Shown here in pieces: positions 11,948 through 29,742 of a stretch of 64,000 bases of DNA; position 1 is the stretch's first letter; every line of letters starts with the position of its first letter. The notes under the pieces were generated by a model that saw nothing but the letters and a program-made list of their open reading frames with translations, had not been told where the DNA came from and searched no databases. Where the stretch lies: positions 4,278,001-4,342,000 of the forward strand of contig NZ_AP024702.1 of NCBI RefSeq assembly GCF_037076345.1, in the 5' to 3' direction. The translations under genes and the position numbers were made by a program. Source of the DNA: Haloferula helveola. GTDB taxonomy: Bacteria > Verrucomicrobiota > Verrucomicrobiia > Verrucomicrobiales > Akkermansiaceae.

Positions 11948-11988
11948 GTCCACTTTCGCCCCCGCCGAGCACACTTTTGACGCACGTC

Positions 11989-12731: not shown

Positions 12732-15700
12732 ATGAGCAAACGCATCTGGCAACACCCCGAGGTTCCCGCCGACGAAACCACCGTCGCCTGGCGCAGCACG
12801 GGACAGCTTGAGAATACCCCGGCCTTCCGCGAGTGGCTGGAACGTGAGTTTCCCCGAGGAGCTGCCGAGATGGCGGACGACGACGACGCGCAGACGTCGC
12901 GCCGTTCCTTCCTCAAGCTGATGGGTGCGTCGACCGCTCTCGCCGGCTTCGGCATGGCGGCTTGCCGTCGCCCGGAAAGCCATATCCTTCCCTACGCCCA
13001 GGCGCCCGAGTGGGTGATCCCGGGCAAGGCGACCTACTACGCTACCAGCATGCCGCGCGCCCATGGCGCTACGCCGATGGTGGTGACGAGCTTCGAGGGT
13101 CGCCCGACCAAGCTCGCTCCGAACACCCTGCACCCGGACAACGCCGGAACGGATGCGTTCGCCCAGGCGTCGGTGCTCGATCTCTACTCGCCGTCCCGCT
13201 CGCGCTACGTGCTGAAGGGTGGCAAGGCGGCCAAGCGTGCCGATTTCGATGCCGTGATGGAAGCTCTCGCGGGCGACACCTCGGCGAAGGTCGGGTTCGT
13301 TTTCGGTCGCGATGACTCGCCGACCCGCGCGCGTCTTCGCAAGGAGATCGCGGACCGCTTCGGCTCCGCCAAGTTCTACGCTTACGAGGCCCTCGAGGGC
13401 GAAGCCCACAAGGCGGCCGGCGACGGTCAGCGCTACGTGGTCGACTTCTCGAAGGCGGACCGCATCGTTTCGCTCGACTGCGATTTCGCCGGCCTCGACC
13501 CGGTCGGTCCGGTCACTGGTTTCTTCGATCGCCGCAAGCCGGAAGGCAAAGGCTACGGCAACAAGCCGGAAGCATCCGGCATGAACCGGCTCTATGCGGT
13601 CGAAAGCGGATTCTCGCTGACCGGCGGCATGGCCGATCACCGTCTGAAAGTGAAGCCGAGCGAGCTGGTTCAGTTCGCGAAGGTCCTCGCGCAGCAGGTT
13701 GGCGCTTCGATTCAGGTGCCGGACATCAAGACTCCCGACAGCCGCATCAGCGACTGGGTCCGGGCGATGGCCGATGACCTCAAGAATGCCGATGGCAAGG
13801 TTGCGGTGGTGGCCGGCTCACGCGCCCCCGAAGTCGTCCACCATCTGGTGGCGGCGATCAACGACGCCCTGAAGAGCAGTGCCGAAGGCGGCCCGGTCAA
13901 GCTGGTCCGTACCGAGTCGACGGGTCTCGGCGACATCGAACAACTCACCAAGGACCTGACGTCCGGAGCGGTCGAGCACGTGTTGCTCCTGACTCCGTCC
14001 AACCCGGTCTACGACGCTCCCTCGGATCTCGATTTCGCTGCGGCCCTGGCGAAGGCGAAGACGAGCATCCATTTCGGTCTCCGCACCGATGCCACCGCGC
14101 ACGCCGCGACATGGCATGTTCCGGCCGCCCACTACCTTGAGGCTTGGTCGGACAGCCGCACGATCAATGGCGTGCACACGGTCGTTCAGCCGATGATCCT
14201 GCCGCTCTACGCGGACTGCATGTCGGAAATCGAAGTGCTCGCGGCATTCCTCCCGAAAGAAGAGCCGAAGGAAGGTGAGGAAGCTGCCGGTGAACCGATG
14301 CCTCCGGCCTACGTCGAGGTCCGCAAGACCTTTGCCGGACGGGCGGGCGATAGCGAAGCGGCATGGAAGAAGTTCCTGCATGACGGTTTCCTCGCGGACT
14401 CGACCTACGAGTCTGGTGAGTACGAAGCCGACACCGACCGTGCCACCGAGCTTGCCAAGTCGGCTCCCGAGCCGGCCAACGAGCAGCTTGAGATCATCTT
14501 CGCCACCGACGGCTCGATTTACGACGGCCGCTGGATCGACAACGGCTGGCTTCAGGAAGCTCCGGACCCGGTTTCGAAGATTTCGTGGGACAACGTCGCG
14601 TTGATCGCGCCGAAGACCGCCAAGCGCCTCGGCTTTTACGACGAAGTTGTGGGACTCGAGCCGAAAGGCAAGAGCTACGGGGTCGAAGGCTACTACGGTA
14701 AGAAGGGGCCCGACGACGAAGGTGAGAACCGCACGGGCCGCCTGATCCGGATCAAGGTCAAGGGCCAGGAGCAGCCGCTCGAAGTGCCGGTCCAGATCGC
14801 ATTCGGCCAAGCCGAAGATACGATCATCATTTCTCTCGGCTACGGTCAGGGCTTCAACGAGGAGGACGAACTCGGCCGTCCGGTCGACCACAAGAACCAC
14901 GTTGGCCAGGTCGGAGTGAACACAGGCTTCAACGCTTATCCGTTCCGCACCGCCGCAACCGCTTACTTCGCCATGGTGGAAGGTGCGCCGGCGGGCACCG
15001 ACATCCGCTACTCGCTCGCCGCCACCCAGGAACACCACTCGATGTATGGCCGTGCGCTTGCCCGCGAGGTCTCGACCCTCAAGGACGATCACAAGGGCGA
15101 CTTCGCGAAGCAGCTTGCCAGCGTGCAGAAGCACGGCATGGACTCGCACGCTCCGCCGAACATCTCGCTCTACAAGCCGGTCGACCGCGATGGCGAAAAG
15201 CTGATCAGCGATCCGATCCATCAGTGGGGGATGTCGATCGACCTTTCCTCCTGCATGGGCTGCAACGCCTGTCTCGTCGCCTGCCAGGCTGAGAACAACA
15301 TCCCGATCGTCGGCAAGGAGCAGCTTGCCAAGGGCCGGGAGATGCACTGGATCCGCATGGACCGCTACTTCGCGGTGCAGCCTGAGCTCGACGACCACGG
15401 CCATCCCGTGAAGGACGAGAACGGTGATCCGGTCCTCGACGAGGCCAACATGGAGATGATCCCGCAACCGGTCGCCTGCGTGCAGTGCGAGTCGGCGCCC
15501 TGCGAGACCGTCTGCCCGGTCAATGCCACGATCCACACCGAGGACGGCCTCAACTCGATGGCCTACAACCGTTGCATCGGCACCCGCTACTGCGCCAACA
15601 ACTGCCCCTACAAGGCGCGCCGCTTCAATTTCTTCGACTACAACAAGCGCAACCCGCTCGTTGCGCACAACCTCTACCGTGGTCCGCTCGGTGAGAAGCA

Positions 15701-16151
15701 GGTCGGCACCGCCGCCCACCTCCAGCGCAACCCGAACGTGTCCGTCCGGATGCGGGGGGTCATGGAGAAGTGCACCTACTGCGTGCAGCGACTCAAGGAC
15801 GCGAAGATCCGCCAGAAGCGGACCCAGAAGCAGCAGTCGCTGGCAACCGGCGACTCGACGGTGACCGAAGTCGGAACCGAGAACCTCCGGATCCCCGCGA
15901 ATTCGGTGAAGGTGGCATGCCAGGAGGCATGTCCGGCCGAGGCGATCACCTTCGGCAACCTGCTCGACTCGGATTCGACTCTCCGCAAGATCCGCGGGGA
16001 GGACAACACGCCGGTTCTCGAGCGGAACTACGACCTTCTCAACTACATCGGAACCCGTCCGCGCACCAGTTATCTGGCCCGCGTCAAGAACCCGAATGAA
16101 AAGATGCCCGGTGCCCACAACATCGGCAAGGCCACCATTCACATGCACTAA
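12732..16151 (+). CDS. actB: Alternative complex III subunit ActB, molybdopterin-oxidoreductase-like/iron-sulfur fusion
   Basis: An 1139-aa fusion. After a 56-residue leader comes a variant Tat signal RRSFLKLMGAS (57 on) and AAC at 76-78, a possible lipid-attachment Cys. Residues of about 90-790 form the molybdopterin-oxidoreductase-like domain, which in ActB homologues lacks cofactor. From about 830 on is an FeS domain with four Cys clusters: SCMGCNACLVACQ, CVQCESAPCETVCP, CIGTRYCANNCPY and EKCTYC...VACQEACP. These correspond to the three 4Fe-4S and one 3Fe-4S centres of known ActB. It transfers electrons within alternative complex III on the periplasmic face. Length and order are canonical. 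Confidence 0.95.
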   Translation: MSKRIWQHPEVPADETTVAWRSTGQLENTPAFREWLEREFPRGAAEMADDDDAQTSRRSFLKLMGASTALAGFGMAACRRPESHILPYAQAPEWVIPGKATYYATSMPRAHGATPMVVTSFEGRPTKLAPNTLHPDNAGTDAFAQASVLDLYSPSRSRYVLKGGKAAKRADFDAVMEALAGDTSAKVGFVFGRDDSPTRARLRKEIADRFGSAKFYAYEALEGEAHKAAGDGQRYVVDFSKADRIVSLDCDFAGLDPVGPVTGFFDRRKPEGKGYGNKPEASGMNRLYAVESGFSLTGGMADHRLKVKPSELVQFAKVLAQQVGASIQVPDIKTPDSRISDWVRAMADDLKNADGKVAVVAGSRAPEVVHHLVAAINDALKSSAEGGPVKLVRTESTGLGDIEQLTKDLTSGAVEHVLLLTPSNPVYDAPSDLDFAAALAKAKTSIHFGLRTDATAHAATWHVPAAHYLEAWSDSRTINGVHTVVQPMILPLYADCMSEIEVLAAFLPKEEPKEGEEAAGEPMPPAYVEVRKTFAGRAGDSEAAWKKFLHDGFLADSTYESGEYEADTDRATELAKSAPEPANEQLEIIFATDGSIYDGRWIDNGWLQEAPDPVSKISWDNVALIAPKTAKRLGFYDEVVGLEPKGKSYGVEGYYGKKGPDDEGENRTGRLIRIKVKGQEQPLEVPVQIAFGQAEDTIIISLGYGQGFNEEDELGRPVDHKNHVGQVGVNTGFNAYPFRTAATAYFAMVEGAPAGTDIRYSLAATQEHHSMYGRALAREVSTLKDDHKGDFAKQLASVQKHGMDSHAPPNISLYKPVDRDGEKLISDPIHQWGMSIDLSSCMGCNACLVACQAENNIPIVGKEQLAKGREMHWIRMDRYFAVQPELDDHGHPVKDENGDPVLDEANMEMIPQPVACVQCESAPCETVCPVNATIHTEDGLNSMAYNRCIGTRYCANNCPYKARRFNFFDYNKRNPLVAHNLYRGPLGEKQVGTAAHLQRNPNVSVRMRGVMEKCTYCVQRLKDAKIRQKRTQKQQSLATGDSTVTEVGTENLRIPANSVKVACQEACPAEAITFGNLLDSDSTLRKIRGEDNTPVLERNYDLLNYIGTRPRTSYLARVKNPNEKMPGAHNIGKATIHMH

Positions 16152-16186: not shown

Positions 16187-17677
16187 ATGTCTACCGCCTC
16201 TGAAACCAACACGACCGGCGACGCTCCGAAGCTCCCGGTCCTCAAGCGCGAGAAGCTCATCCTCAACGGGCGTTCCTACCATTGGATCACCGAGCGGATC
16301 TGCGGCGTCCTCGAGAACCGTCAGCCGTTCCTCTGGTGGCTTCTGTTCCTGCCCAGCGCGCTGATCGCCGCCATCGGTGTCGGCGGCGGACTGTTCCACC
16401 TCGTTTCGACCGGTGTCGGCGTGTGGGGGAACACCAACCGCGTGATGTGGGGCTGGCCGATCGTGAACTTCGTTTTCTGGATCGGTATCGGCCACGCCGG
16501 AACGCTGATCTCGGCGATTCTCTTCCTGACCCGCCAGAACTGGCGGACGTCGATCAACCGCGCCGCGGAGGCGATGACGATCTTCGCGGTGATGTGCGCG
16601 GGCATCTTCCCCGCCTTCCACGTCGGCCGCGTCTGGATGGCGTGGTTCCTCGCTCCGATCCCGAACGCCAACGGCATCTGGCAGAACTTCAAGTCGCCGT
16701 TGCTTTGGGACGTGTTCGCGGTCTCGACCTACTTCACGATCTCCCTGATCTTCTGGTATCTCGGGATGGTTCCGGATCTCGCGACCATCCGCGACCGCTG
16801 CAAGCCCGGCCTGCGCAAGCTGCTCTACGGCATCTTCTCGCTCGGCTGGCGCGGCGGAAACCGCCAGTGGAGCCACTACGAAATGGCCTACCTGCTCCTC
16901 GCCGCGCTCTCGACGCCGCTGGTGCTTTCGGTCCACTCGGTCGTTTCGTTCGACTTCGCCACCTCGGTTGTCCCCGGCTGGCACACCACCATTTTCCCGC
17001 CGTACTTCGTCGCGGGCGCCATCTTCGGCGGCTTCGCGATGGTGCTCACCATCATGATCCCGGCACGCTTCATCTACGGTCTGCAGGATCTGATCACGAT
17101 GAAGCACATCGACAACATGGCGAAGATCATCCTGCTGACAGGCACGATCGTCGGCTACGCCTACCTGATGGAGCTCTTCGTGGCGTTCTACTCGGGCGCC
17201 AAGTTCGAGATGGAGGCCTTCAAGTACCGGATCACCGGCCCCTATTCCTGGGCTTACTTCTGCATGATGTTCTGCAACGTCATCGCGCCACAGATCTTCT
17301 GGTTCAAGAGCATGCGCGAGAACCTGTGGGTCGTGATGGGCGTATCGATGCTCGTCAACATCGGGATGTGGTTCGAGCGCTTCGTGATCATCGTCACGAC
17401 CCTGGCCCGCATGTGGCTGCCGGGTGACTGGAAATACTACAATCCCAGTGGCCAGGACCAGTTGCTGTTCGTCGGCACGATCGGGATGTTCCTGACCCTG
17501 TTCCTCCTCTTCCTGCGCTTCCTGCCGTGCATCAACATCGCCGAGGTGAAGTGGACGCTGCCGGAGTCCGATCCGCACCACGACGACCACGAGGATCATC
17601 CGGACGAAGGCACGGCCGTCGAGGCCGCCTACCAGAAGGAGCTCCATTCCCCGGCTCCCGCCACCGCCGATACCTGA
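16187..17677 (+). CDS. actC: Alternative complex III subunit ActC, NrfD-like quinol-binding membrane subunit
   Basis: A 496-aa polytopic protein of the NrfD/PsrC family with about ten hydrophobic helices. A soluble N-terminus ([28 protein letters not shown]) precedes the first helix, and a His/Asp/Glu-rich C-terminal tail ([16 protein letters not shown]) ends the protein. In alternative complex III ActC is one of two homologous membrane subunits; it contacts ActB and is proposed to oxidise menaquinol. It sits 35 bp after actB. The acidic/His-rich tail could bind metal, which is inference. Confidence 0.93.
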
Positions 17678-17720
17678 CCCCCATTTGGCAATTGGATTCT
17701 AACCCTTGGCAATTCTTCCA

Positions 17721-18275
17721 GTGAGTACCACCCGCAAACGAGTCTACGGCTACCTCGCCGAGTTCAAAAGCGCCTCCGCCCTCTACAAGGCCGCGGAAAA
17801 GGTCCGCGATGCCGGCTTCCGCAAGTGGGATTGCCACTCGCCGTATCCGATCCACGGACTCGACGGCGCGATGGGGCTCAAACGCTCGATCCTGCCATTC
17901 TTCGTGTTCTTCGGCGGGTGCACCGGTCTGGCGACCGGTTTCTTCCTCGCCTACATCACCCAGGTCCGCATCTACCCGACGGTCGTTCAGGCCAAGCCGG
18001 CCAACATCTTCACCGTGCCGGCCTTCTTTCCGCCGATGTTCGAGCTGACCATCCTTTTCTCGGGCTTCACGGTGCTTTTCGGCCTGCTCGCGCTGATGAA
18101 GCTGCCGCGTCTCAACCACCCGCTCTTCGCCAGCCGCCAGTTCCACCGGACGACCGACGACGCGTTCTTCATCGCGATCGAGGCCCGCGATCCGAAATTC
18201 AGCCCGGACGGCACCCGCTCGCTTCTCGAGGAGATCGGCGGTTCGAACATCGAACTCATCGAAGAAGAGGACTGA
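17721..18275 (+). CDS. actD: Alternative complex III subunit ActD (DUF3341)
   Basis: A two-helix membrane protein with the YGYLAEFKSASALYKAAEKVRDAGF N-terminal domain. GLDGAMGLKRSILPFFVFFGG begins the first helix, and a C-terminal cytoplasmic segment (TTDDAFFIAIEARDPKFS) ends it, typical of ActD. It is thought to be a structural subunit on the cytoplasmic side. GTG at 17721 is chosen (184 aa): it is preceded by the pyrimidine-rich TTCTTCCA context seen at other starts of this operon. A TTG at 17706 would add five residues. Confidence 0.9.
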   Translation: MSTTRKRVYGYLAEFKSASALYKAAEKVRDAGFRKWDCHSPYPIHGLDGAMGLKRSILPFFVFFGGCTGLATGFFLAYITQVRIYPTVVQAKPANIFTVPAFFPPMFELTILFSGFTVLFGLLALMKLPRLNHPLFASRQFHRTTDDAFFIAIEARDPKFSPDGTRSLLEEIGGSNIELIEEED

Positions 18276-18311: not shown

Positions 18312-19016
18312 GTGAAATACTTCTTCCTCGCCTACGCGATCATCGCCGCGCTCGTCATCGGACTGCTTCCGATGCGCGGTGAGAAGCGCGCCGAAACGCC
18401 GTTGCGCCTGTTCCCCGACATGGATGACCAGGACAAACTCAAGGCCCAGAAGCCGGATGCGTTCTTCTCGGACGGCGCCGGCGGCCGCCATCCGGTCGAC
18501 GGCACCAACCCGGTCGGATTTCTCCCCGAAGGCCAGTCGGAGCTTGGCGGTATCCCCGAATACGAATTCGGCGGCGGCACCAGCTACTACGCCACCGGCG
18601 CGATCGAGGATTATTACTCCAACGGCATGCCCGACGAACTCGGATTGGATGCCAACAACGTGGACGCCTTCCTCCGCCGCGGCGAGGAGGTCTACAACAT
18701 CAACTGCATGCCCTGCCACGGCAAGTCGGGCGACGGTCTCGGTATCACCTCGAGCTTCGGCGTCCCGGGCATCGCCAACCTGACCTTGGACAACTTCGGC
18801 CAGGCCGCCTACCCGGACGGCCGGCTGTTCGACGTGATCTCGAACGGCAAGGGCAACATGGGTGCCTACAAGCACAACATCCCGATCCGTGACCGCTGGG
18901 CGGTGGTCGCCTACGTCCGCGCGCTGCAGACCGCCCGCAAGGCTCCGCTTTCGGATCCTTCGATCAAGGCGGCATTCGATGCCGCGACCCAGAACACCGA
19001 GAGTTCGGCCCAGTAA
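18312..19016 (+). CDS. actE: Alternative complex III subunit ActE, monohaem cytochrome c
   Basis: A 234-aa cytochrome starting at GTG (VKYFFLAYAIIAALVIGLLP). The N-terminal hydrophobic segment serves as anchor or lipoprotein-like leader. One CMPCH haem motif lies at about residues 133-137 within GEEVYNINCMPCHGKSGDGLG, and a later Met (GNMGAYKHNIP) is the likely axial ligand. ActE is the electron exit subunit of the complex, passing electrons to an oxidase or a carrier. The gene lies 36 bp after actD and 12 bp before actF. Confidence 0.92.
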   Translation: MKYFFLAYAIIAALVIGLLPMRGEKRAETPLRLFPDMDDQDKLKAQKPDAFFSDGAGGRHPVDGTNPVGFLPEGQSELGGIPEYEFGGGTSYYATGAIEDYYSNGMPDELGLDANNVDAFLRRGEEVYNINCMPCHGKSGDGLGITSSFGVPGIANLTLDNFGQAAYPDGRLFDVISNGKGNMGAYKHNIPIRDRWAVVAYVRALQTARKAPLSDPSIKAAFDAATQNTESSAQ

Positions 19017-19028
19017 CACTTTTCCACC

Positions 19029-20396
19029 ATGGCATCCCACTTCGTCACTTCCGCAGACATCCCCGCCAACGGGGAGCGTCTCCAGAACGCTACGGTCTCC
19101 AAGGTCAAGATGATCGCCGGAGGGCTCTGCGCCATCCTCTCGGTGGTGAGCCTGTTCCTGCTCTTCGGACCCAACGAAGGCTGGGCCGCGACCTACGCCT
19201 ACTCCTGGCTGTTCGCGCTGTTCTTCTTCTTCACCCTTGCCGTCGGCGGCTGCTTCTGGACGCTGCTCCACAACGTCTCCAACTCGGGGTGGGGGACTTC
19301 GGTCCGCCGGATCATGGAGAACCTCGGTTCGGTTTATCCGTGGATGTTCCTGTTCGCGATCCCGCTGCTCTGCCCGGCGGTTCAACAGTATCTCTACGAG
19401 TGGATGACCATCCACCGCGAGGGCCTGTCCCAGGACAATGTTGGACTGTTCGACGGGTTCATGGCGGGCTTCTACGGCTCCGATTCGCTCCAGGGTTGGC
19501 TCAACGACAACCACCACGCGCTGTTGGCCAACAAGCTGTGGTACATGAACCTCTTCGCGTGGTACACTCGCTTCATCTTCTACTTCGTCGGCCTGACTCT
19601 CGTTATCCGCGGGCTGAGGAAGCTGTCGGTTGAGCAGGACAGCGACCCGAACCCCGGAACGGTCCGCCTGTTCAAGGCCCGCTTTCACTCGACTTACACG
19701 CTGATCATCTTCGCGATCACGATCACCTTCGCTGCCTTCGATTGGCTGATGGGCCTGGACTACAAGTGGTTCTCGACGATGTGGGGCGTCTACATCTTCG
19801 CCGGCACCGCGTTGAACTCGATGGCGGTCATCATCATCACCGCCACGCTCCTCCAGAGCGCCGGCTACATGAAGAAGGTGCTGACGCCCGAGCACTTCCA
19901 CATCAAGGGCAAGCTGCTCCTCGCCTTCACGATCTTCTGGGCCTACGTGACCTTCTCCCAGTTCTTCCTCATCTGGTATGCGAACATCACTGAGGAAACG
20001 AGCTACTTCCTGATCCGCAACACCGGCGGCTGGAACACCGGAATGATCTTCCTCGTCTTCGGCCACTTCGTGGTTCCGTTCGTCATCCTGCTGCAGGCAT
20101 GGCTGAAGAAGAATCCGAAGCTGCTCAGCCTGGTCGCGGTCTACACACTCGTGATGCACGTCGTGGATCACTACCTGATCTCAATCCCCGAGCGCTCGAT
20201 CTCGCTGATGAACATCCTGCCCGACAAGTTCGGTCACGTGACGACGGCCGTTCCCGGAGCGTTCTGGGGTGATGTTCTGGCCTTCGTTACTGTCGGTGCG
20301 GGCTTCGTCTTCTTCTACCTTCGCGCCCTCGGCGCCAACAACCTCTACCCGAACCGCGACCCGCGCCTTCTCGAGTCGGCGAACGTTTCGAACTAG
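19029..20396 (+). CDS. actF: Alternative complex III subunit ActF, second polytopic membrane subunit
   Basis: A 455-aa integral membrane protein with about ten hydrophobic helices. It resembles ActC in topology and belongs to the quinol:cytochrome c oxidoreductase quinone-binding subunit 2 group. Conserved-looking stretches include SNSGWGTSVRRIMENLGSV, a helix with FAAFDWLMGLDYKWFSTMWG and the late QFFLIWYANITEETSYF. ActF is thought to form part of the proton-conducting or quinol-binding membrane arm. It closes the canonical actABCDEF order. Confidence 0.93.
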   Translation: MASHFVTSADIPANGERLQNATVSKVKMIAGGLCAILSVVSLFLLFGPNEGWAATYAYSWLFALFFFFTLAVGGCFWTLLHNVSNSGWGTSVRRIMENLGSVYPWMFLFAIPLLCPAVQQYLYEWMTIHREGLSQDNVGLFDGFMAGFYGSDSLQGWLNDNHHALLANKLWYMNLFAWYTRFIFYFVGLTLVIRGLRKLSVEQDSDPNPGTVRLFKARFHSTYTLIIFAITITFAAFDWLMGLDYKWFSTMWGVYIFAGTALNSMAVIIITATLLQSAGYMKKVLTPEHFHIKGKLLLAFTIFWAYVTFSQFFLIWYANITEETSYFLIRNTGGWNTGMIFLVFGHFVVPFVILLQAWLKKNPKLLSLVAVYTLVMHVVDHYLISIPERSISLMNILPDKFGHVTTAVPGAFWGDVLAFVTVGAGFVFFYLRALGANNLYPNRDPRLLESANVSN

Positions 20397-20430: not shown

Positions 20431-21240
20431 ATGGACCCATCTCGTGACAACCCGCTCATCCGTTTCACCGCCTTTTGGTGGGGGATCGGCGTGATCTCGC
20501 TGTTCTTCGTCGTGCTGCTGCTCACCCGCATGGTGGTCGGCGGTGGTGAAGGCTCCGATCCGCTCGAGGAAGCGGCTGCGAAAAACCGTCAGAAGGTGCG
20601 CGAGGCGGTCGATACTGCCCAGGCTGCGGCTTTTGAGACGAAGGTCGTGACCGAGGGTGAGACCGTCCAATTGCATCCCGAGCATGTCTTCGACTATGTC
20701 GGTAAGCAACTGGTCGACGGTGCTCCGACGAAGGTCGAGGATCCGGCGCAGGTTGTGCCCAACTCGCCGACCGCGATCGAGATCGCGAACGCACCTGCCG
20801 CGGGCGATCCCGCTGCTGTGGATGCCCTGACGCCTCCTGCCGACACCGAGATCGATCCGGCCGTCATCGAGAAGGGCAAGCAGGCGTTTATGGTCTGCAT
20901 GGCCTGCCACGGCATGGACGGCAAGGGTGTGCCGAACGTCGGTCCGCCGCTTGCGGGTTCCGAGTGGGTCACCGGTCCCGTATCCAACCTCATCCGTATC
21001 CAGATGCGCGGTCTTGAAGGTCCGATCGAAGTTGCGGGGCAGAAGCTCACATTCCTCGCGCCGATGGCGCCGATGGGGGCGGCGAGCTCCGACGAGGACG
21101 TCGCCGCGGTGCTCACCTACATCCGCAATTCCTTCGGAAACACGGCCCCTCCGGTTCTTGTTGAACAGGTCAAGATGCTGCGCAGCGAGGTCGGCAAGCC
21201 GATGCTCAAGCAGGAAGATCTCATCGCTCCCGAGAAGTAA
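20431..21240 (+). CDS. Membrane-anchored monohaem cytochrome c (first paralogue)
   Basis: A 269-aa protein: one N-terminal transmembrane helix (TAFWWGIGVISLFFVVLLLTRMVVGG), a linker of about 110 residues rich in Ala/Pro/acidic residues, then a class I cytochrome domain with CMACH. A later MAPMGAASSDEDVAAVLTYIRNSFGN supplies the probable axial Met. It is a paralogue of the cytochrome at 23510: both share PLAGSEW, GL.GP and the TY.RN.FGN ending. The pair flanks the CcoN/CcoO-like genes, so it may be a CcoP-like donor subunit. The ATG at 20431 is chosen because it follows TTCCTTCC and is 34 bp from the actF stop. Confidence 0.88.
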   Translation: MDPSRDNPLIRFTAFWWGIGVISLFFVVLLLTRMVVGGGEGSDPLEEAAAKNRQKVREAVDTAQAAAFETKVVTEGETVQLHPEHVFDYVGKQLVDGAPTKVEDPAQVVPNSPTAIEIANAPAAGDPAAVDALTPPADTEIDPAVIEKGKQAFMVCMACHGMDGKGVPNVGPPLAGSEWVTGPVSNLIRIQMRGLEGPIEVAGQKLTFLAPMAPMGAASSDEDVAAVLTYIRNSFGNTAPPVLVEQVKMLRSEVGKPMLKQEDLIAPEK

Positions 21241-21246
21241 TTCATC

Positions 21247-22737
21247 ATGTCGAACCCTCCCGAATCCAGTATCGATCACGACCCGACCGTCCGGGCCGCG
21301 ATTGACCGCTCGCTGCGGCACCCGGTGATGTTCTTTTTCACCAGCGGCGCGGCTTGGTTGGCCGTCGCGATCCTCCTCGGCATCATTTCGTCGGCAAAGG
21401 TTCACAGTCCGCAATTCCTCGGTGACTGCGCATGGTTCACCTACGGTCGCGTGTTCGCCGCCCACCAGAGCGCCTTGCTCTACGGCTGGGGCTGCCAGGC
21501 GGCCTTCGGAATGATGATTTGGCTGATGGCACGCCTTTCGCGTCAGGAATGCCGCAATGCCGGAACGATCCTGATGGCGGGGCACGTCTGGAACTTCGCC
21601 ATCTCGATCGGCGTGATCGGCATTCTCGCCGGTGGCGGAACGGGCATGCCTTGGATGGACATGCCGTCCTTCGCGTGGATCCCGATGCTGCTCTCCTACG
21701 GTGCCATCCTCATCTGGTCGATGGTTCAGTTCAAGGTGCGCCCGGAAGGTCATACCTACATTTCGCAGTGGTACCTGATGGCGGCGCTGATCTGGTTCCC
21801 CTGGTTCTTCGGATCGGCCCACCTGCTCGTCCACGGGTTCGGCGGCAGCCCTCTCGGCGCCGCCGGCGTGAACGCTTGGTATCACTCGGCGCTGCTGCTG
21901 CTGTTCTTCGCTCCGGTCGGGATCGGGATGGCCTACTATCTGGTGCCGAAGGTGACCGGCCGTCCGGTGTTCAACTACTCGATGTCGCTCCTCGGTTTCT
22001 GGACCCTCGCCGCGATCGCACCCTGGGCCGGCCTGCAGAAGCTGACCGGTGCACCGATTCCGAACTTCCTTCCGTATCTCGGCGCATTCGCCGGCATCCT
22101 GTTCGCGATGCCTGCCGCGCTCGCCGGTATCAATCTGCTCAAGACGGCTTCCAGCGAAATGGAGACGGTCAATCTCAGCCCGACCCTCCGCTTCACGATC
22201 TGGGGGCTGATCTTCCTCCTCGTCCTTGGTGCCGCCAGCGTCGTTCTGAACAGCCCGGGTGTAATGAAGATCACCCAGTTCACGATGTCCGGCTACGGCT
22301 ACGACCTGCTGGCGGTCTACGGCTTCTTCAGCTTCATCGCCTTCGGCTCGATCTACTTCATCGTTCCTCGGATCACCCGTCGTGAATGGCTGTCGCGCCG
22401 CCTGATCAAGTGGCACTTCTTCCTCTCGATCTACGGGATCGGCGCGATCATCGTGGTGGCCCTCTTCGGCGGCCTGATGCAGGGCGTCGGTCAGGAGGAA
22501 TACCTCCAACCTTGGGAGAATGCCGCCGGCCGCGCATTCCCTTACGCGGTTCTGGTGACCACGGCATGGAGCTTCCTGCTGCTTTCCAACGTCTTCTTCT
22601 TCCTCCACCTGACGCTGATGTGGCTGCGCCTCGGTCGGCGTAGCTCGCACCCGACCCTGCTCGTGACGCCGCACCATTCGAGTCCGCACGGACCGGAAGG
22701 TGACATCGATAACGTCGGCTCCGCCTCCGCCCACTGA
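21247..22737 (+). CDS. CcoN-like (cbb3 oxidase subunit I) membrane protein lacking most haem and copper ligands
   Basis: A 496-aa polytopic protein recognisable as cbb3-type subunit I. AAHQSALLYGWG keeps one low-spin haem His at 73, and WYHSALLLLFF, AYYLVPKVTGRPVFNYSMSLLGFW and PWAGLQKLTGAP align without gaps to CcoN. At the CuB His-His pair (GPHHL in CcoN) it has LQK (Gln264, Lys265). At GHVHSG, which holds the haem b3 His and the second haem b His, it has GYDLLA (Tyr352, Leu354). At the cross-linked CuB His position it has Ser214, with a His one residue earlier. It therefore should not reduce oxygen. The likely role is structural, or quinone/proton related, within a supercomplex. It is followed by a haem-competent CcoO-like subunit. 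Confidence 0.85.
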   Translation: MSNPPESSIDHDPTVRAAIDRSLRHPVMFFFTSGAAWLAVAILLGIISSAKVHSPQFLGDCAWFTYGRVFAAHQSALLYGWGCQAAFGMMIWLMARLSRQECRNAGTILMAGHVWNFAISIGVIGILAGGGTGMPWMDMPSFAWIPMLLSYGAILIWSMVQFKVRPEGHTYISQWYLMAALIWFPWFFGSAHLLVHGFGGSPLGAAGVNAWYHSALLLLFFAPVGIGMAYYLVPKVTGRPVFNYSMSLLGFWTLAAIAPWAGLQKLTGAPIPNFLPYLGAFAGILFAMPAALAGINLLKTASSEMETVNLSPTLRFTIWGLIFLLVLGAASVVLNSPGVMKITQFTMSGYGYDLLAVYGFFSFIAFGSIYFIVPRITRREWLSRRLIKWHFFLSIYGIGAIIVVALFGGLMQGVGQEEYLQPWENAAGRAFPYAVLVTTAWSFLLLSNVFFFLHLTLMWLRLGRRSSHPTLLVTPHHSSPHGPEGDIDNVGSASAH

Positions 22738-22769: not shown

Positions 22770-23486
22770 ATGAGTTTCCGTCAATTTGCCATCGGTCTCA
22801 CCGCCAGCTTCGGTATCGCGTGGCTGGCTGTGGTGGTCGTGCCTTTCTTCAAGCTTCGCAATCCCGCTCCGATCGCCTTCCAGGAGGGCGTCGATACGCA
22901 GGAGGGGATTTACCACCCGAAGCGGGCCGGTCGGGTCGCGAACGGTGCGCACATCTATGCGGCAAACGGCTGTTACGAGTGCCACACGCAGGTCGCACGG
23001 CCGAGCTACGCCGGAAACGACCTTGGGCGGCAGGATCTCGCCGGCCTTGCTCCCTCCCTCCATCCCGATGGTGTCGACAGCCGTCGCGAGTCGAACATCT
23101 ACGACTACATCGGCCTTGATTTCGCCCCGATCGGTGTCACCCGTCTGGGTCCCGACCTGTCCAACCTCGGCCGCAGGGTCGAGGCGGAGCACGGTGCGGA
23201 TGCCAAGGATTGGCTGATGCTCCACCTCTACGATCCGCGGCTGGATCCGGCCCGCCGCAATTGGTCATCCTGTCCGTCCATGTCGTTCTTCTTCGAAAAG
23301 CGAGAGATCACCGGACAGCCGTCCGACGATGCCCTCGGTGTGACCGTCAAGAAGGGCTGGGAAGTGGTGCCCGGCGAGAAGGCTGAGGCTCTCGTCAGCT
23401 ACCTACTTTCGCTCAAGCACGACGATCCCGTTCCCGCCTCGATGAACTACGCCCCGATCAAGGGCGACGATAACAACGAAGGCTGA
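22770..23486 (+). CDS. CcoO-like (cbb3 oxidase subunit II) monohaem cytochrome c
   Basis: A 238-aa protein with an N-terminal transmembrane helix (IGLTASFGIAWLAVVVVPFF). The FixO/CcoO-type haem site is AANGCYECHTQVARP (CxxCH at about 70-74). RLGPDLSNLGRR and WLMLHLYDPR are typical of the CcoO fold, and a Met in the SMSFFFEKR region may be an axial ligand. It is at the family's usual length and its haem motif is intact, in contrast with the CcoN-like partner encoded just upstream. It is predicted to carry electrons on the periplasmic side between alternative complex III and the aa3 oxidase. Confidence 0.88.
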   Translation: MSFRQFAIGLTASFGIAWLAVVVVPFFKLRNPAPIAFQEGVDTQEGIYHPKRAGRVANGAHIYAANGCYECHTQVARPSYAGNDLGRQDLAGLAPSLHPDGVDSRRESNIYDYIGLDFAPIGVTRLGPDLSNLGRRVEAEHGADAKDWLMLHLYDPRLDPARRNWSSCPSMSFFFEKREITGQPSDDALGVTVKKGWEVVPGEKAEALVSYLLSLKHDDPVPASMNYAPIKGDDNNEG

Positions 23487-23509: not shown

Positions 23510-24271
23510 ATGCAAGATTCCCAGAAGCCTGATCTCGACGAATCGCTGAACGTCACCCAGTCGCACGACCGCGCCATGCGCGAGGCGGCTGCCGTGGCGC
23601 GTGAGAAGCACGTTGATGAAGGAGGTCGAGAGCCGTTGTCCCTGTGGGTCTTCGGCGCCAGCGCGTTCATCCTGATTTTCGCCGGCCTCGCGCTGGGGAA
23701 TGCGGGTTCGTTCTTCAACTACAACGAGACGGTTAAGTCGGACTACGTTCGCAAAACCTTCGACAGCGGCGACAACTCCGGGCCGCCACCCGGCGAGGCC
23801 CTAAAGATCTACATGGCCAAGGGCGAGAAAATCTACGGCAAGTGCATCGGCTGCCACGCGCCCGACGGCAAGGGCGGGGGTGCCTATCCGGCTCTCGCCG
23901 GCAGCGAATGGGCGCTTGGAGAGACCGAGCGCTTCGCGATGGTCGTTCTCAACGGTCTTTCCGGGCCGACGAGTACCGGCAAGACTTACGGGGTGATGCC
24001 CGCCCAGGGTATCGGCATGAGCGATGTCGATCTCGCCGCCGTGATGACCTACGTGCGCAATGCTTTCGGCAACTCGAAGGGTGATGTCGTCACCAAGGAG
24101 ATGGCCGCCGAGGCGATCAAGATTTCCGAAGCACGGGCGAACCCTGGCTCGCCCGTGACCGCCGATGAACTGAAAGCCGACCACCTCAAGGACCTTCCGG
24201 GGGACAAGCTCGATCCGACCACCATGATCGACCCCGTCACGCTTGAGCCGGTGGAAGCCGCCGCCGAGTAA
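23510..24271 (+). CDS. Membrane-anchored monohaem cytochrome c (second paralogue, CcoP-like)
   Basis: A 253-aa protein. The cytoplasmic N-terminus (residues 1-43) is followed by a transmembrane helix (LWVFGASAFILIFAGLALG). A cytochrome c domain carries KCIGCHAPDGKGGGAYPALAGSEW and a later VMPAQGIGMSDVDLAAVMTYVRNAFGN with the axial Met. It is the paralogue of the cytochrome encoded at 20431. Its position after CcoN- and CcoO-like genes corresponds to ccoP, although true CcoP is usually dihaem and this has a single haem. The C-terminal 60 residues are hydrophilic and low in complexity. Confidence 0.88.
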   Translation: MQDSQKPDLDESLNVTQSHDRAMREAAAVAREKHVDEGGREPLSLWVFGASAFILIFAGLALGNAGSFFNYNETVKSDYVRKTFDSGDNSGPPPGEALKIYMAKGEKIYGKCIGCHAPDGKGGGAYPALAGSEWALGETERFAMVVLNGLSGPTSTGKTYGVMPAQGIGMSDVDLAAVMTYVRNAFGNSKGDVVTKEMAAEAIKISEARANPGSPVTADELKADHLKDLPGDKLDPTTMIDPVTLEPVEAAAE

Positions 24272-24294: not shown

Positions 24295-26193
24295 ATGAGT
24301 GCACATGCCGCCACGGCCGACTCACACGGTCACGACGACCACGACCATCACCACGATCCCGGTTTCGTGAAGAAGTATATCTTCTCCACGGACCACAAGA
24401 TGATCGGTATCCAGTACGGCATCACCGCCGGAGCGTTCCTGCTGTTCGGGTTCTTCCTGATGATGGTGATGCGATGGAGCATCGCCTATCCTCACGAGCC
24501 CCTTCCGGGCTGGATGAGCTGGATGTTCACCGACGACTGGAAGGCACGCTGGCTTCAGGACGGCAAGGTGACCGGCGATACCTACAACATGTTCGGCGCC
24601 ATGCACGGTACGATCATGGTCTTCCTCGGTGTCGTGCCTCTGGGCTTCGGTGCCTTCGGCAATTTCGTCACTCCGCTGCAGATCGGTGCGCCCGACATGG
24701 CGTTCCCGCGTCTCAACATGATGAGTTACTGGGTCTACCTCGCCGGTGGCCTGATCATGTGCGGCTCGTTCTTCATGGAATCGGGGGCCGCGAAGTCCGG
24801 TTGGACGAACTACTCTCCGCTGGCGGGCATCGCCGACGCGCAAATCACCAACCAGTGGCTGGCGGGCCAGACGCAGTGGCTCATCGGACTGGTACTCCTG
24901 ATCACCTCTTCGCTCCTCGGGTCGGTCAACTTCATCACGACCATCATCAACCTGCGGGCACGCGGCCTCACCTGGATGCGCATGCCGTTCTTCGTGTGGG
25001 CCATGCTGGTGACCGGCTTCCTCCTCCTGCTCGCGTTCCCTCCGCTTGAAGCAGCAGGGATCATGCAGCTGATGGACCGAGTGACCGGTTCGTCGTTCTT
25101 CATGCCCTCCGGTCTCTACACCAAGGCGGAAGGTCTTCTTGAGATTTCCGGTGGCGGCTCGCCGCTGCTGTTCCAGCACCTTTTCTGGTTCCTCGGTCAC
25201 CCCGAGGTCTACGTCCTGCTCCTTCCGGCGATTGCCTGCGTGGCCGAGATTATCCCGGCCAACACCCGCAAGCCTCTCTGGGGCTACAAGGCGATGGTCT
25301 ACGGGGTGCTCGTGCTCGGCTTCCTGTCATTCATCGTGTGGGCGCACCACATGTATCTGACCGGGATGGGTCCGGTGGTCTCGACGTGGTTCCAGACGAC
25401 GACGGTTCTGATTTCCATCCCGTCGGTCATTCTTCTGACCTCACTGATCATCTCCCTGTGGGGTGGTTCGATCCGCTTCACGCCGGCGATGATCTGGGCC
25501 TGCGCGTTCCTGCCGATGTTCGGTATCGGCGGTCTTACCGGTCTGCCGCTGGCGTTCAACCTCGTGGATCTCCACCTGCACGACACTTACTACGTCATTG
25601 GTCACTTCCACTACGTCGTGGCTCCGGGGATTCTCTTCGGTCTCTTCGCCGGCGTTTACCATTGGTATCCGAAGCTTACCGGCCGCCAGATGAGCCGCTT
25701 CCTCAGCCACTTGCACTTCTGGCCGAGCCTGATCTGCATGAACCTGATTTTCTTCCCGATGCTCACTCAGGGGATGGCCGGTTTCCACCGCCGCTGGTAC
25801 AACGGAGGTGACGCTTACCTCGCGAAGTCTCCGGACAGCGCCAATGTCTTCGGAACCACCGTTGCCGAACACATCGACCTCAACATCCTGATGTCATGGG
25901 CTGCATGGATCATGGCTCTCGCCCAGGTCCCGTTTCTGATCAACATGGTCATCAGCAAGTTCGCCGGTCGCAAGGTCACCAGCGACAACCCCTGGAACGC
26001 GACCACCCTCGAGTGGGCGACCCCGACGCCTCCGGGTCACGGCAACTTCCTGACCGAGCCGGTCGTCTACCGCGGACCATACGAATACAGCCGGCCCGAC
26101 CACGACGAGGACTTCCTTCCCCAGTGGATCGAACCGAAGAAGCCGGCCGAAGCGCCCGCCGAGAAGCCGGAGGAATCTCCTGCCGAGCACTGA
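24295..26193 (+). CDS. ctaD: Cytochrome c oxidase subunit I (aa3-type), K-channel lysine absent
   Basis: A 632-aa haem-copper oxidase catalytic subunit of A-type. The haem a His is in MFGAMHGTIMVF. GHPEVYVLLLPA supplies the CuB His, the D-channel-end Glu and the cross-linking Tyr; VWAHHMYLTGM supplies the CuB His pair; HDTYYVIGHFHYV supplies haem a3/a His. D-channel Asp is present in IGAPDMAFPRLN. At the K-channel position (PTGIKVF in Paracoccus) it reads PSVILLT, so Lys is Leu in an ungapped alignment. The N-terminus is His/Asp rich (HGHDDHDHHHD). It catalyses reduction of O2 to water with proton pumping. Confidence 0.95.
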   Translation: MSAHAATADSHGHDDHDHHHDPGFVKKYIFSTDHKMIGIQYGITAGAFLLFGFFLMMVMRWSIAYPHEPLPGWMSWMFTDDWKARWLQDGKVTGDTYNMFGAMHGTIMVFLGVVPLGFGAFGNFVTPLQIGAPDMAFPRLNMMSYWVYLAGGLIMCGSFFMESGAAKSGWTNYSPLAGIADAQITNQWLAGQTQWLIGLVLLITSSLLGSVNFITTIINLRARGLTWMRMPFFVWAMLVTGFLLLLAFPPLEAAGIMQLMDRVTGSSFFMPSGLYTKAEGLLEISGGGSPLLFQHLFWFLGHPEVYVLLLPAIACVAEIIPANTRKPLWGYKAMVYGVLVLGFLSFIVWAHHMYLTGMGPVVSTWFQTTTVLISIPSVILLTSLIISLWGGSIRFTPAMIWACAFLPMFGIGGLTGLPLAFNLVDLHLHDTYYVIGHFHYVVAPGILFGLFAGVYHWYPKLTGRQMSRFLSHLHFWPSLICMNLIFFPMLTQGMAGFHRRWYNGGDAYLAKSPDSANVFGTTVAEHIDLNILMSWAAWIMALAQVPFLINMVISKFAGRKVTSDNPWNATTLEWATPTPPGHGNFLTEPVVYRGPYEYSRPDHDEDFLPQWIEPKKPAEAPAEKPEESPAEH

Positions 26194-26217: not shown

Positions 26218-28053
26218 ATGGAAATTCCCTACGTCGTCAATCCGCGCAAGGACACCGGCCTCTTCAACTCGAAGATCGCCATCTGGCTGTTCCTCGCGTC
26301 GGAAGTCATGCTCTTCGGCGGTCTTTTCTCCGCCTACATCTTCCTCCGCCTCGGAGCGGATTACCCATGGCCGGAGCGGACCCTGCCCGTGCTGCCGGGC
26401 CTGATCAACACGTTCATCCTGATCGCCTCGTCGGTCACCGTCGTGTTCGCCTGGGCCTCGCTCAAGATGCGCCAGTGGGGCCGTTTCCAGATCTTCATGG
26501 GCATCACGGTCGCTTGCGCCGCGATCTTCATGGTCTTCAAGGGGATCGAGTACAACGTCAAGTTCCACCACCAGGCCGCACGGCTCAATGACTACACCGC
26601 GATCGAGGGGCACATCGACTACTTCAAGGTCGGGGGCGACGATCACGGTCACGGGGATCACGGCGACCATGAGCCGGAGTACCTACTGGATGCCCACGGT
26701 CACAAGATCGAGGCGAACCGCCACAACATCCTGACCAGTTCGCTGACCTTCGACCTTGCCCGGATGCAGGGCGACTGGGTGGAGGATGCGATCGCCGAGG
26801 CCACGACGGAGGGAGTCGCGATCACGCTTGCCGAGGATTTCGACCTGAATGCGGCGGACTCCGCCGAGCCGGACGAAGACAAGATCGTCAAGGCGGGCAC
26901 GCCGCTGTCGCTTGAAGTCATCGACAAGCTCAAGGGTATCCAACTCGACAATCACGCCGAGAATTCCAACTGGCGGATCCGATTCAATCGCGAGGCATGG
27001 CGCCTCAAGAAGGCCGACATCAAGCGCAACGACCTGCTCGGTGAAGCGGCGTTCGCGGCCGACTATCCGAAGGGTGCTGAGGCGGGCGCGGATGAGCGCG
27101 ATGAGATCTACGCACGCTGGAAGGCGGGCATGCGTGCACGTCTTGCGACCGAGGTGTCACTGACCGAGGTCAAGCTCAGCGACGACGGCGCCGTCCCCGT
27201 CCTCATCAAGGGCAAGTCGCTTGACGACGTGAGCCTTCCTGAGAAGCCCACCGTCAAGTTCACCTTCAGCAAGCCGATGGTGCTGCGGTTGAAGAGCCAC
27301 GACGTGATCAATGACTACGAGGAGGGCTCCACCTCCGTGGCTCTGCGCGACAACACCGTGGTCGAGGGCAAGTATGAGCCAAGCCCGATGAATTTCCACT
27401 ATGTCGACGGCATCGACTTCCAGCACCTCGTGATGATCGCCGAGGAGAAGGATCAGGATCCGATCATCGCGATCGAGAGCAGCTGGTTGATCAAGAACAA
27501 CCCGGAGGTCGCCGAGCTTTGGGAGATGCACAAGGGAGTGGTCGAGCAGTTGGAGGATCACCTGGCCAAGAAGGACCGTGAGCCGACTCACAAGGACCGC
27601 TACCGCATGGGATGGCAGGAGATCGCCTTCTATATGGATGCCCTTGAAAAGCACACGGCCGAGGGCGGCAAGGGGTTGCCCGAGATCAAGATTGGGGAAA
27701 AGGCGGTTTCGGCTCCCAAAGTCACGATGACTCTCAAGGAGCACTTCATGGGGCCGGACTACCATAACCGGAAGTTCCCGCATGTCTCGGTGCCCAGGGC
27801 GGAAGTCGCCTTGGACTCGAAGTTCACGCCCAAGTGGAATACCTACTACGCGATCTACTTCACGATCACCGGATTGCACGGACTCCACGTGGTCGGTGGC
27901 GCCATCGTGCTCGCCTACTACCTCTTCTGCAGCCGCAAGATGTATCAAAGCAACCCGGAGTGGCTCGCCAACCGGGTCGAAGTCGGCGGCCTTTTCTGGC
28001 ACTTCGTTGACCTCGTCTGGATCTTCGCCTTCCCGATTTTCTACCTCATGTGA
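26218..28053 (+). CDS. ctaE: Cytochrome c oxidase subunit III with a very large periplasmic insertion
   Basis: A 611-aa protein, against about 200-270 aa for normal subunit III. Three helices occupy residues 19-112 (IAIWLFLASEVMLFGG, LINTFILIASSVTVVFAW, FMGITVACAAIFMVFKGIEY). The last two helices are at 541-611 (ITGLHGLHVVGGAIV, FWHFVDLVWIFAFPIFYLM). Between them lie about 420 extra hydrophilic residues (about 113-535), starting with a His-rich stretch at 142-162. Frame and codon use are continuous, so this is not an assembly artefact in appearance. By the topology of five-helix subunit III the insertion should face the periplasm. It may contact cytochromes or alternative complex III. Confidence 0.9.
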   Translation: MEIPYVVNPRKDTGLFNSKIAIWLFLASEVMLFGGLFSAYIFLRLGADYPWPERTLPVLPGLINTFILIASSVTVVFAWASLKMRQWGRFQIFMGITVACAAIFMVFKGIEYNVKFHHQAARLNDYTAIEGHIDYFKVGGDDHGHGDHGDHEPEYLLDAHGHKIEANRHNILTSSLTFDLARMQGDWVEDAIAEATTEGVAITLAEDFDLNAADSAEPDEDKIVKAGTPLSLEVIDKLKGIQLDNHAENSNWRIRFNREAWRLKKADIKRNDLLGEAAFAADYPKGAEAGADERDEIYARWKAGMRARLATEVSLTEVKLSDDGAVPVLIKGKSLDDVSLPEKPTVKFTFSKPMVLRLKSHDVINDYEEGSTSVALRDNTVVEGKYEPSPMNFHYVDGIDFQHLVMIAEEKDQDPIIAIESSWLIKNNPEVAELWEMHKGVVEQLEDHLAKKDREPTHKDRYRMGWQEIAFYMDALEKHTAEGGKGLPEIKIGEKAVSAPKVTMTLKEHFMGPDYHNRKFPHVSVPRAEVALDSKFTPKWNTYYAIYFTITGLHGLHVVGGAIVLAYYLFCSRKMYQSNPEWLANRVEVGGLFWHFVDLVWIFAFPIFYLM

Positions 28054-28104: not shown

Positions 28105-28482
28105 ATGGCTGACAGCGTAGAAGACATCAAGAAGTCCGCACGGCTGTATCTCATGATCGGCGCGGCGCTTTTCGTGGGCACGGTCCTGACGGTAATGGTC
28201 GCGACCGTTCCGGCCCTCGATTTCGGTGGTCACGGCTTCGACAAGGCGGACATGATTCTCGGTCTCGCGATCGCCACCACCAAGGCAACTCTCGTCGCCC
28301 TGATCTTCATGCACCTGAATCACGAGAAGGTGTGGGTCTACTGGCTGTTCGGCTTCGGGCTCTTCTTCGGCGTGGCGATGGTGGCGCTCATCTTCCTCGC
28401 GAAGGGCGATCCCATTCACTACGACAACTTCTCGACCGGAACCGACCCGGCACCATTGGTTGAACCGGTCGACTCCGATTGA
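28105..28482 (+). CDS. ctaF: Cytochrome c oxidase subunit IV
   Basis: A 125-aa protein with three hydrophobic segments: YLMIGAALFVGTVLTVMVAT, MILGLAIATTKATLVALIFMHL and WVYWLFGFGLFFGVAMVALIF. It contains the family core ATTKATLVALIFMHLNHEK of prokaryotic cytochrome c oxidase subunit IV (CtaF/CoxF). It is a small structural or assembly subunit of the aa3 oxidase. The gene directly follows ctaE and the start is preceded by TTCCATTCC. Confidence 0.88.
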   Translation: MADSVEDIKKSARLYLMIGAALFVGTVLTVMVATVPALDFGGHGFDKADMILGLAIATTKATLVALIFMHLNHEKVWVYWLFGFGLFFGVAMVALIFLAKGDPIHYDNFSTGTDPAPLVEPVDSD

Positions 28483-28947: not shown

Positions 28948-29742
28948 ATGAACTCCCTGAGTCCTTCGAAATTCCTCAGTATCCCCGATAACTTCTCGAA
29001 TCACGGGGGACGGGTCGACCACATGATCGACGTCGTTCACTGGCTGATGATCGCGCTGTTCATCGGTTGGACGCTGTTCTTCCTGTACTGCCTTGTCCGG
29101 TTCCGCCAGTCGGCCAATCCGAAAGCCTCGTATCACGGTGTCCGGAACCACGTGTCGTCCCACCTCGAAATCGGGATCGTGATTCTCGAGGCCGTGCTGC
29201 TTCTCGGTTTCGCGTTCCCCTTGTGGAAGGAGCGGACCGATTCATGGGAAACGGTGCAGCAGCGCAACCCGATCCGTGTAAGGGTCATCGGCTGGCAGTT
29301 CGGCTGGACCTATCACTATGCGGGTGCCGACGGCAAGTTCGGCCGGATCGACCATCGTCTCAAGACAGCGAACAGCGACCCGGGCATCGACCTCGACGAT
29401 CCCAACGCGCTCGATGATTTCACCACTTCGGTGCTCAAGCTGCCAAAGGGCCGTCCTGCGATTCTCAATATCGGCTCGAACGACGTGATCCACAACTACG
29501 CGATCATCCCGATGCGGATCCAGCAGGATGCGATCCCGGGCCGCGAGATCCCGATGTGGTTCACACCGAACAAGGAACTCGAAACCTCGGTCGTTTGTGC
29601 CCAGCTCTGTGGCGAAGGCCATGGAAACATGGCCGGCCAGATGGAGGTCATCAGTGAGAAGGCCTTTGATTCGTGGTTTGCCGCGGAGTCCGAGTCCGCT
29701 CTCAAACGCAACAGCCCCGCTGAGGCCACCGCGGCCCGTTGA
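28948..29742 (+). CDS. ctaC: Cytochrome c oxidase subunit II with CuA site
   Basis: A 264-aa protein with two transmembrane helices (about 27-52 and 72-93) and a cupredoxin domain. CuA ligands are visible: His182 in DVIHNYAIIP, then Cys217, Cys221, His225 and Met228 in VVCAQLCGEGHGNM. The residue between the Cys pair is Gln219 where most enzymes have the Glu that also binds the Mg site. There is no fused cytochrome c domain, so electrons must come from a separate cytochrome such as ActE or the monohaem proteins encoded upstream. It is placed last, after ctaD-ctaE-ctaF, which is an unusual order. Confidence 0.94.
   Translation: MNSLSPSKFLSIPDNFSNHGGRVDHMIDVVHWLMIALFIGWTLFFLYCLVRFRQSANPKASYHGVRNHVSSHLEIGIVILEAVLLLGFAFPLWKERTDSWETVQQRNPIRVRVIGWQFGWTYHYAGADGKFGRIDHRLKTANSDPGIDLDDPNALDDFTTSVLKLPKGRPAILNIGSNDVIHNYAIIPMRIQQDAIPGREIPMWFTPNKELETSVVCAQLCGEGHGNMAGQMEVISEKAFDSWFAAESESALKRNSPAEATAAR

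Follow-up and report, generated by a model that had tools for sequence, protein, structure and literature searches.

The window, that is, the whole stretch of 64,000 nucleotides of Haloferula helveola DNA that was analysed, carries a gene for a CcoN-like protein between the genes of alternative complex III (ACIII) and those of an aa3-type oxidase, and alignment indicated that a single His is all that remains in this protein of the residues binding haem b, haem b3 and CuB, and that the active-site Tyr is gone as well. The loss of ligands, and its repetition among relatives, can be regarded as nearly certain, and on the residues found it is very probable that the protein is not an oxidase. With moderate confidence, it is read as a retired oxidase subunit kept as a platform for c-type cytochromes between ACIII and the aa3-type oxidase.

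The CcoN-like protein and its operon

The genes were arranged in the order actA-actF, cytc1, ccoN-like, ccoO-like, cytc2, coxA, coxC, coxD and coxB, as follows:

11977..12711, + strand: ActA, pentahaem cytochrome c (five CxxCH; Cytochrome_C7)
12732..16151, + strand: ActB, iron-sulfur subunit of alternative complex III (6f0k_B, E 3.2e-202; 6btm_B, E 4.2e-116)
16187..17677, + strand: ActC, NrfD-like (PF03916, E 1.5e-25)
17706..18275, + strand: ActD (PF11821 ActD, E 3.1e-59)
18312..19016, + strand: ActE-like mono-haem cytochrome c (PF13442, E 7.8e-13; operon position)
19029..20396, + strand: ActF (6f0k_F, E 7.1e-46)
20431..21240, + strand: cytc1, additional mono-haem cytochrome c, encoded between actF and the ccoN-like gene (PF00034, E 1.8e-11)
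21247..22737, + strand: CcoN-like protein, predicted cofactor-less C-family, cbb3-type subunit I, 496 aa (PF00115, TIGR00780, ligand alignment, AlphaFold, structure match)
22770..23486, + strand: CcoO-like mono-haem cytochrome c (PF02433, 29.7 bits versus a cut-off of 29.6)
23510..24271, + strand: cytc2, CcoP-like mono-haem cytochrome c (PF00034, E 1.2e-10; TIGR00782, 34.9 bits, under the cut-off)
24295..26193, + strand: CoxA, A-type subunit I with intact ligand motifs (PF00115, 429 bits; TIGR02891; HPEVY, HH, HFH)
26218..28053, + strand: CoxC, subunit III with a long insert (PF00510 in two stretches)
28105..28482, + strand: CoxD-like subunit IV (PF03626, E 2.7e-9)
28948..29742, + strand: CoxB, subunit II with a CuA motif and without fused haem c (PF00116, TIGR02866; no CxxCH)

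ActA to ActF were all present and in order, as in an ACIII operon, and the cox genes lay downstream, which bears out the sequence-only reading that the ccoN-like gene is embedded in an intact operon; ActF had no match in Pfam. An insert several hundred residues long appears to interrupt the COX3 domain of the 611-aa CoxC (nt 26218–28053), and CoxC was 455 to 624 aa long in the order of H. helveola versus 225 to 295 aa in more distant operons.

The ccoN-like frame (nt 21247–22737, + strand) started with ATG, had no internal stop and encoded 496 aa. The product matched the COX1 family (PF00115, E 2.6e-39) and scored 106.5 bits against TIGR00780, the NCBIfam ccoN equivalog, far under the cut-off of 583.15 that was also missed by an intact CcoN of the act operons (L029, 235 bits). 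By sequence, its nearest solved chains were five CcoN from cbb3 oxidases (lowest E 6.5e-22), and its AlphaFold model (mean pLDDT 90.6, pTM 0.91) could be superposed over its whole length on CcoN (8smr_E; Z 48.5 (VIA), 446 residues, 2.1 Å). The protein is thus full length, in frame and of CcoN fold from end to end, as had been claimed from the sequence. The model matched cNOR less well (Z 43.3), for which reason a cNOR-type ancestry was set aside, and A-type oxidases with Z about 35.

Ligand positions were read in a MAFFT alignment against L081, the canonical CcoNO that the same genome also encodes, and HMMER alignments to solved CcoN chains agreed with the placement. The codons concerned were:

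21463..21465, + strand: His73, low-spin His 1, the only remaining ligand position (alignment to L081)
21886..21888, + strand: Ser214, position of the CuB His in TM6 (alignment to L081)
22018..22020, + strand: Ala258, position of the active-site Tyr (alignment)
22036..22041, + strand: Gln264-Lys265, position of the CuB His-His pair (alignment to L081)
22300..22308, + strand: Tyr352, position of the haem b3 His, to Leu354, position of low-spin His 2 (alignment)

Of the six His that bind the haems and CuB, His73 alone was left, so that a low-spin haem b would lack its pair of His; Tyr352 replaced the proximal His of haem b3, and the three CuB His and the cross-linked Tyr had become Ser214, Gln264, Lys265 and Ala258. 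The Tyr replaced by Ala258 belongs to the motif Y-x-W-A-G-P-H-H and is, we presume, Tyr251 in P. stutzeri numbering. Both the survival of His73 alone and the residue numbers assigned by eye in the sequence-only reading (Gln264-Lys265, Tyr352, Leu354, and a Ser preceded by a His) agreed with these alignments, and the alignment and model that had been proposed as a check upheld the CcoN fold and the loss.

His213, one residue before Ser214, was considered as a substitute ligand and rejected, because Arg or Lys stood there in eight of the nine other sequences of the H. helveola family (L005–L013), His being found only in L012. A misalignment, with other His such as His213 or His390 supplying the ligands, is very improbable, since, besides the variation at position 213, His390 is present in canonical CcoN as well, the fold match runs from end to end, and the intact homologues line up at each of the ligand columns. 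The nearest relatives share the loss (16 of 16 sequences, L004–L019), and chance, mistranslation, sequencing error or decay were rejected as its cause for this reason and because the gene is under purifying selection (see below).

Intact and degenerate forms in one operon slot

A match was obtained in 91 of 288 genomes sampled across the phylum, 66 of them inside the class and 25 outside it; nine of the latter were read (L070–L078). In the window and the 65 other loci of the class, the ccoN gene followed actF, sometimes after an intervening cytochrome c gene, and preceded a ccoO gene with one CxxCH; actA to actD were not found within the fetched stretch at L069 and L091–L093. The seven ligand positions were fully intact (HHYHHHH) in 21 of these members and not in 45. 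Addition of 80 named loci and further class genomes gave 246 loci with 213 distinct family sequences, 96 of them intact (six His and Tyr) and 117 degenerate, a ratio that is not a prevalence because of how loci were chosen and which regions were taken in: L256–L325 came from genomes chosen for weaker scores, L111–L190 were found with an intact first sequence, and 40 of 100 chosen regions were taken in. The question raised in the sequence-only reading, whether all homologues have lost the same ligands, is thus answered in the negative; many homologues in the same slot were intact, and the replacements at the seven positions varied between degenerate lineages.

Act genes were present at the loci of all 117 degenerate sequences and of 75 of the 87 intact ones (from the 96) covered by the gene-order check. 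The remaining 12 had no act gene at the locus, five of them lying within 2 kb of a contig end; at the other seven, with intact CcoN-CcoO (L161, L173–L176, L185 and L189), 2.7 to 9.9 kb of sequence in front held no detected act gene, and for this reason the intact form may also exist on its own, apart from the act operon. No degenerate CcoN apart from act genes was seen among the 117.

The active-site Tyr was kept in none of the 117 degenerate sequences, 102 of which retained at most one of the seven ligand residues; the b3 His was kept in seven and both low-spin His in four (L021, L022, L158 and L159), L021 and L022 retaining nothing but that pair. Three sequences (L158, L159 and L163), with four or five of the seven residues kept, lacked the Tyr together with one His of the CuB pair or the whole pair, and thus look like early stages of loss. 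L158 and L159, from MAGs titled Opitutaceae, stood half-way, with the His of haem b and haem b3 kept; intact members occurred in Opitutaceae-titled records as well. In the other classes of the phylum (L070–L078), CcoN-like proteins of 457 to 517 aa kept all ligands, and eight of these nine loci also held a protein of about 600 aa with seven CxxCH. Three genomes (G548, G535 and G353) each had two family members.

His73 was kept in 19 of the 20 sequences from the order of H. helveola and in 25 of the 117 degenerate ones. One haem b might therefore survive in this lineage, bound by His73 and with a second ligand that is new or absent; the persistence of His73 opposite a Leu, Ile or Val at the partner position, which a pure scaffold does not require, and the complete low-spin pair of L021 and L022 would fit this reading. 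It is nevertheless improbable, as no His, Met or Lys is found at or beside the partner position in TM10 (Tyr352 to Leu354) and His73 is absent from 92 of the 117 degenerate sequences. The CcoN-like protein would more plausibly be present without haem in an ACIII complex.

CoxA (frames of at least 450 aa) fell inside the fetched stretch at 26 degenerate and seven intact loci, so that adjacency to an aa3 oxidase is not in itself the trigger of loss. HPEVY and HH were present in all 33 of these CoxA proteins, and HxH in 26 by strict pattern and in the other seven by reading; ligand loss is therefore not general to the COX1 genes of these genomes.

Repeated loss and subsequent evolution

All 12 outgroups (L070–L081) were intact, and the direction of change is therefore loss. 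With the ligand columns removed, a CcoN tree of 72 sequences had degenerate L036 nested among intact relatives and was read as at least three losses, and a mixture-model CcoN tree of 35 sequences required a minimum of seven changes and rejected a single degenerate clade (p-AU 3.3e-12). Trees of Act proteins, used as trackers of the operon, needed eight changes (ActA, B, C and F, 66 sequences), at least 12 (ActA-F, 31 sequences; single clade rejected, p-AU 1.4e-11) and at least 16 (ActA-F, 138 sequences), and a quick CcoN tree of 213 sequences and seven outgroups gave four, with long branches in play. The minimum is thus three to seven losses by CcoN trees versus eight to 16 by Act protein trees, and a single ancient loss was rejected by the AU tests on both CcoN and ActA-F. 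The exact number depends on gene and model; the larger CcoN trees gather the degenerate sequences into fewer groups, probably by long-branch attraction. The same retirement of an oxidase almost certainly took place several times independently in Verrucomicrobiae.

For L047, transfer of a degenerate cassette rather than loss in place appears disfavoured by the identities: its CcoN shared 47% to 49% identity with intact L177 and L186 versus 38% to 40% with degenerate L055 and L310, and its CcoO 68% to 71% versus 50% to 54%. Against this, the 35-sequence CcoN tree grouped L047 with L055 and L310 inside intact relatives (SH-aLRT 99, long branches); ActA-F rejected the trio (p 4.9e-5).

CcoN evolved faster after ligand loss. 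Between degenerate L047 and intact L177, identity was 94% for ActC, 90% for ActF and 71% for CcoO but only 47% for CcoN, and the CcoN of the intact sisters L177 and L186 were 87% identical. In the clade of H. helveola, CcoN has settled again and is no less conserved than its neighbours, L004 and L012 sharing 59% identity in CcoN, 58% in ActB, 58% in ActF and 46% in CcoO. Omega was 0.07 to 0.35 for degenerate CcoN (the 10 of 11 pairs for which dS was finite, including three pairs drawn from a single trio of genomes), with 0.14 for the L004/L005 pair, and 0.01 to 0.07 for intact CcoN (four of five pairs with finite dS); degenerate CcoN is thus under purifying selection. That the protein is a drifting, non-functional remnant, carried along by transcription of the operon, could be argued from the acceleration between sister operons and from the higher omega of degenerate pairs, but is quite improbable, given the long open frames in 117 distinct sequences, omega well below 1 and the conservation reached again in the H. 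helveola clade.

Purifying selection would also be expected if CcoN had acquired a new function, for instance if the room left by the haems now served to bind quinol, to move protons or other ions across the membrane or to gate ACIII. Positions conserved in the order of H. helveola and unlike the intact consensus (Q344, W441, N448 and others) speak for this, and cofactor-free NrfD-like subunits are said, in the part of the source available, to interact with quinones (PMC8076601). On the other side, the varying replacements at the seven positions, with no common new polar motif seen, are what would be expected of relaxed positions, and 41 positions conserved at 95% in intact members fell below 40% in degenerate ones. 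A new activity is thus a minor possibility, and the earlier proposal of a subunit repurposed for quinone or proton chemistry gained no support, no new polar site shared across degenerate lineages having been seen. It is likewise unlikely that the protein is an obligatory redox-inert module of a quinol oxidase, a cofactor-free energy-transducing or gating subunit of ACIII produced by repeated convergent conversion; if this were true, ACIII with the CcoN-like and CcoO-like proteins would be a distinct respiratory complex replacing an ACIII-cbb3 oxidase in much of Verrucomicrobiae.

The best-supported reading remains the other half of the earlier proposal, a conserved non-catalytic scaffold, in that fold, slot and selection are kept and the ligands are gone. 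Speaking against it, positions freed after the loss lay in sequence not clearly closer to the ligands than those retained (median of 21 versus 28 residues).

Cytochrome partners, oxidase complement and significance

The CcoO-like protein of the window matched solved CcoO chains (E 2e-6) and retained its haem attachment motif as CYECH. Among CcoO frames of 150 to 420 aa, CxxCH was kept in all 159, that is, 76 with degenerate and 83 with intact CcoN. The conserved Met further on, which we take to be the distal ligand of the haem c, was Cys168 in the window (codon 23271–23273) and Cys in all 10 sequences of the H. helveola family (L004–L013), none of which had another conserved Met behind the haem motif. 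The partner had been called haem-competent, and this was half right, because attachment is preserved and the distal Met is not; the substitution predicts a His/Cys-ligated haem c in this family. Overall, the Met was lost in 21 of 76 CcoO accompanying degenerate CcoN and in none of 83 accompanying intact CcoN, and Trp148 and His152, invariant in the 83, were present in only 40 and 37 of the 76, respectively; constraint on CcoO is relaxed solely alongside degenerate CcoN. In the genus of L012 and L013 (L089 and L090), cytc1 in front of the ccoN-like gene lacked CxxCH, and in L312 CcoN and a CxxCH motif lay in one frame of 743 aa, apparently a CcoN-CcoO fusion.

ActA carried five CxxCH in 136 of 136 cases and CoxB had no CxxCH in 37 of 37. 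With five haems in ActA and no haem c fused to CoxB, an extra cytochrome c relay from ACIII to CuA would, by analogy with Flavobacterium johnsoniae and Rhodothermus marinus (see below), be needed in Verrucomicrobiae, which the module of CcoN-like protein, CcoO-like protein and cytochromes c could supply. In the H. helveola family, candidate Met ligands persist in cytc2, most often within Met-Pro. Since the CcoO-like protein of that family has Cys in place of its Met ligand, cytc1 and cytc2 are more likely than the CcoO-like protein to form the relay. In the mechanism we favour, the ancestor of the CcoN-like protein was the catalytic subunit of an ACIII-coupled, cbb3-like oxidase; since the ligands and the Tyr are gone, the present protein could not reduce O2 and would have been kept as a membrane-embedded structural subunit, a platform holding the CcoO-like and CcoP-like cytochromes next to ACIII. 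Menaquinol electrons would then leave ACIII through c-type haems to the aa3-type oxidase, where the O2 chemistry would take place. That the function is that of a platform rather than another one, for which conservation and operon order argue, has a slightly better than even chance.

In each of two genomes with an intact form (G001 and G145, 98% to 99% complete), a survey limited to the COX1 family found no match besides CcoN of the act operon, an indication that the intact form functions as an oxidase. All 45 degenerate genomes checked had another, stronger COX1 match (best E < 1e-124), read as A-type, and four of the 21 intact genomes had no such further match (Fisher p 0.008, not corrected for kinship).

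The methanotroph group f4 (L065–L069, L296 and L299) had AMO/pMMO genes in all five genomes checked, none being found in G000 and G013. In its seven CcoN of the act operon, the second His of the CuB pair was the only one of six still present, the Tyr was lost and no ligand of either haem was kept. The other COX1-family matches of these genomes we take, by their motifs, to be A-type, B-type and cNOR-like, one A-type assignment (L205) being based on the E-value only, and by the same motifs no ligand-bearing C-type was found among them. On the sequences at hand, the verrucomicrobial methanotrophs appear to carry only degenerate CcoN in the act operons of the genomes examined, which may not be those of the published strains. 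In the published text available to us, a cbb3 oxidase adjoining ACIII is attributed to verrucomicrobial methanotrophs (PMC8498564) and linked to high O2 affinity (PMC6688271); the oxidase also appears in PMC10205796 and PMC8170126, the latter describing one strain without it. These enzymes, and that of Opitutaceae, share the operon slot and the family (PMC8498564, PMC6688271) and are treated as active in the parts of the papers seen, whereas the f4 loci keep one His and no Tyr. As far as the available text of these papers goes, the examined genomes therefore put in question the printed claim of a cbb3 oxidase beside ACIII in verrucomicrobial methanotrophs.

With CcoN and CcoO of known cbb3 oxidases (3mk7, 8smr, 6xkw), the pair from the window shares fold, length, subunit pairing and the haem c motif of CcoO; it differs in that the CcoN-like protein lacks the low-spin pair, the b3 and CuB ligands and the Tyr, is encoded in an act operon and falls far under the equivalog cut-off. 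With the ACIII and ACIII-aa3 supercomplexes of Flavobacterium johnsoniae and Rhodothermus marinus, the window shares, at the level of genes, actABCDEF with cox downstream, and it differs by a CcoN/CcoO/cytochrome c module between actF and cox whose catalytic subunit is inert as judged by its residues. According to the text seen of PMC8552683, R. marinus has a five-haem ActA, as in the window, and an extra haem c on its caa3 oxidase, and F. johnsoniae ActA has a sixth haem, which R. marinus lacks. The cbb3 oxidase fold and ACIII-aa3 operons are thus known, and no description of repeated loss of cofactor ligands from CcoN was found in a literature search that reached few subscription papers; four papers mention ACIII in this phylum and, in the parts available, not the ligand loss (PMC13274419, PMC5615132, PMC8706344, PMC12341988).

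Within one bacterial class, the occupant of a single operon slot is in some members apparently functional and in others dead, with several independent losses and half-way stages, which makes it possible to test in what order the decay proceeded and why the shell was kept. The presence of a haem-copper oxidase catalytic subunit is taken as dependable evidence of respiration; three degenerate proteins that were scanned still exceeded the Pfam COX1 cut-off, and annotation by Pfam COX1 is therefore blind to the loss. Many genomes may thus be wrongly credited with a cbb3-like oxidase, and microaerobic respiration may be mispredicted from the genomes of many Verrucomicrobiota.
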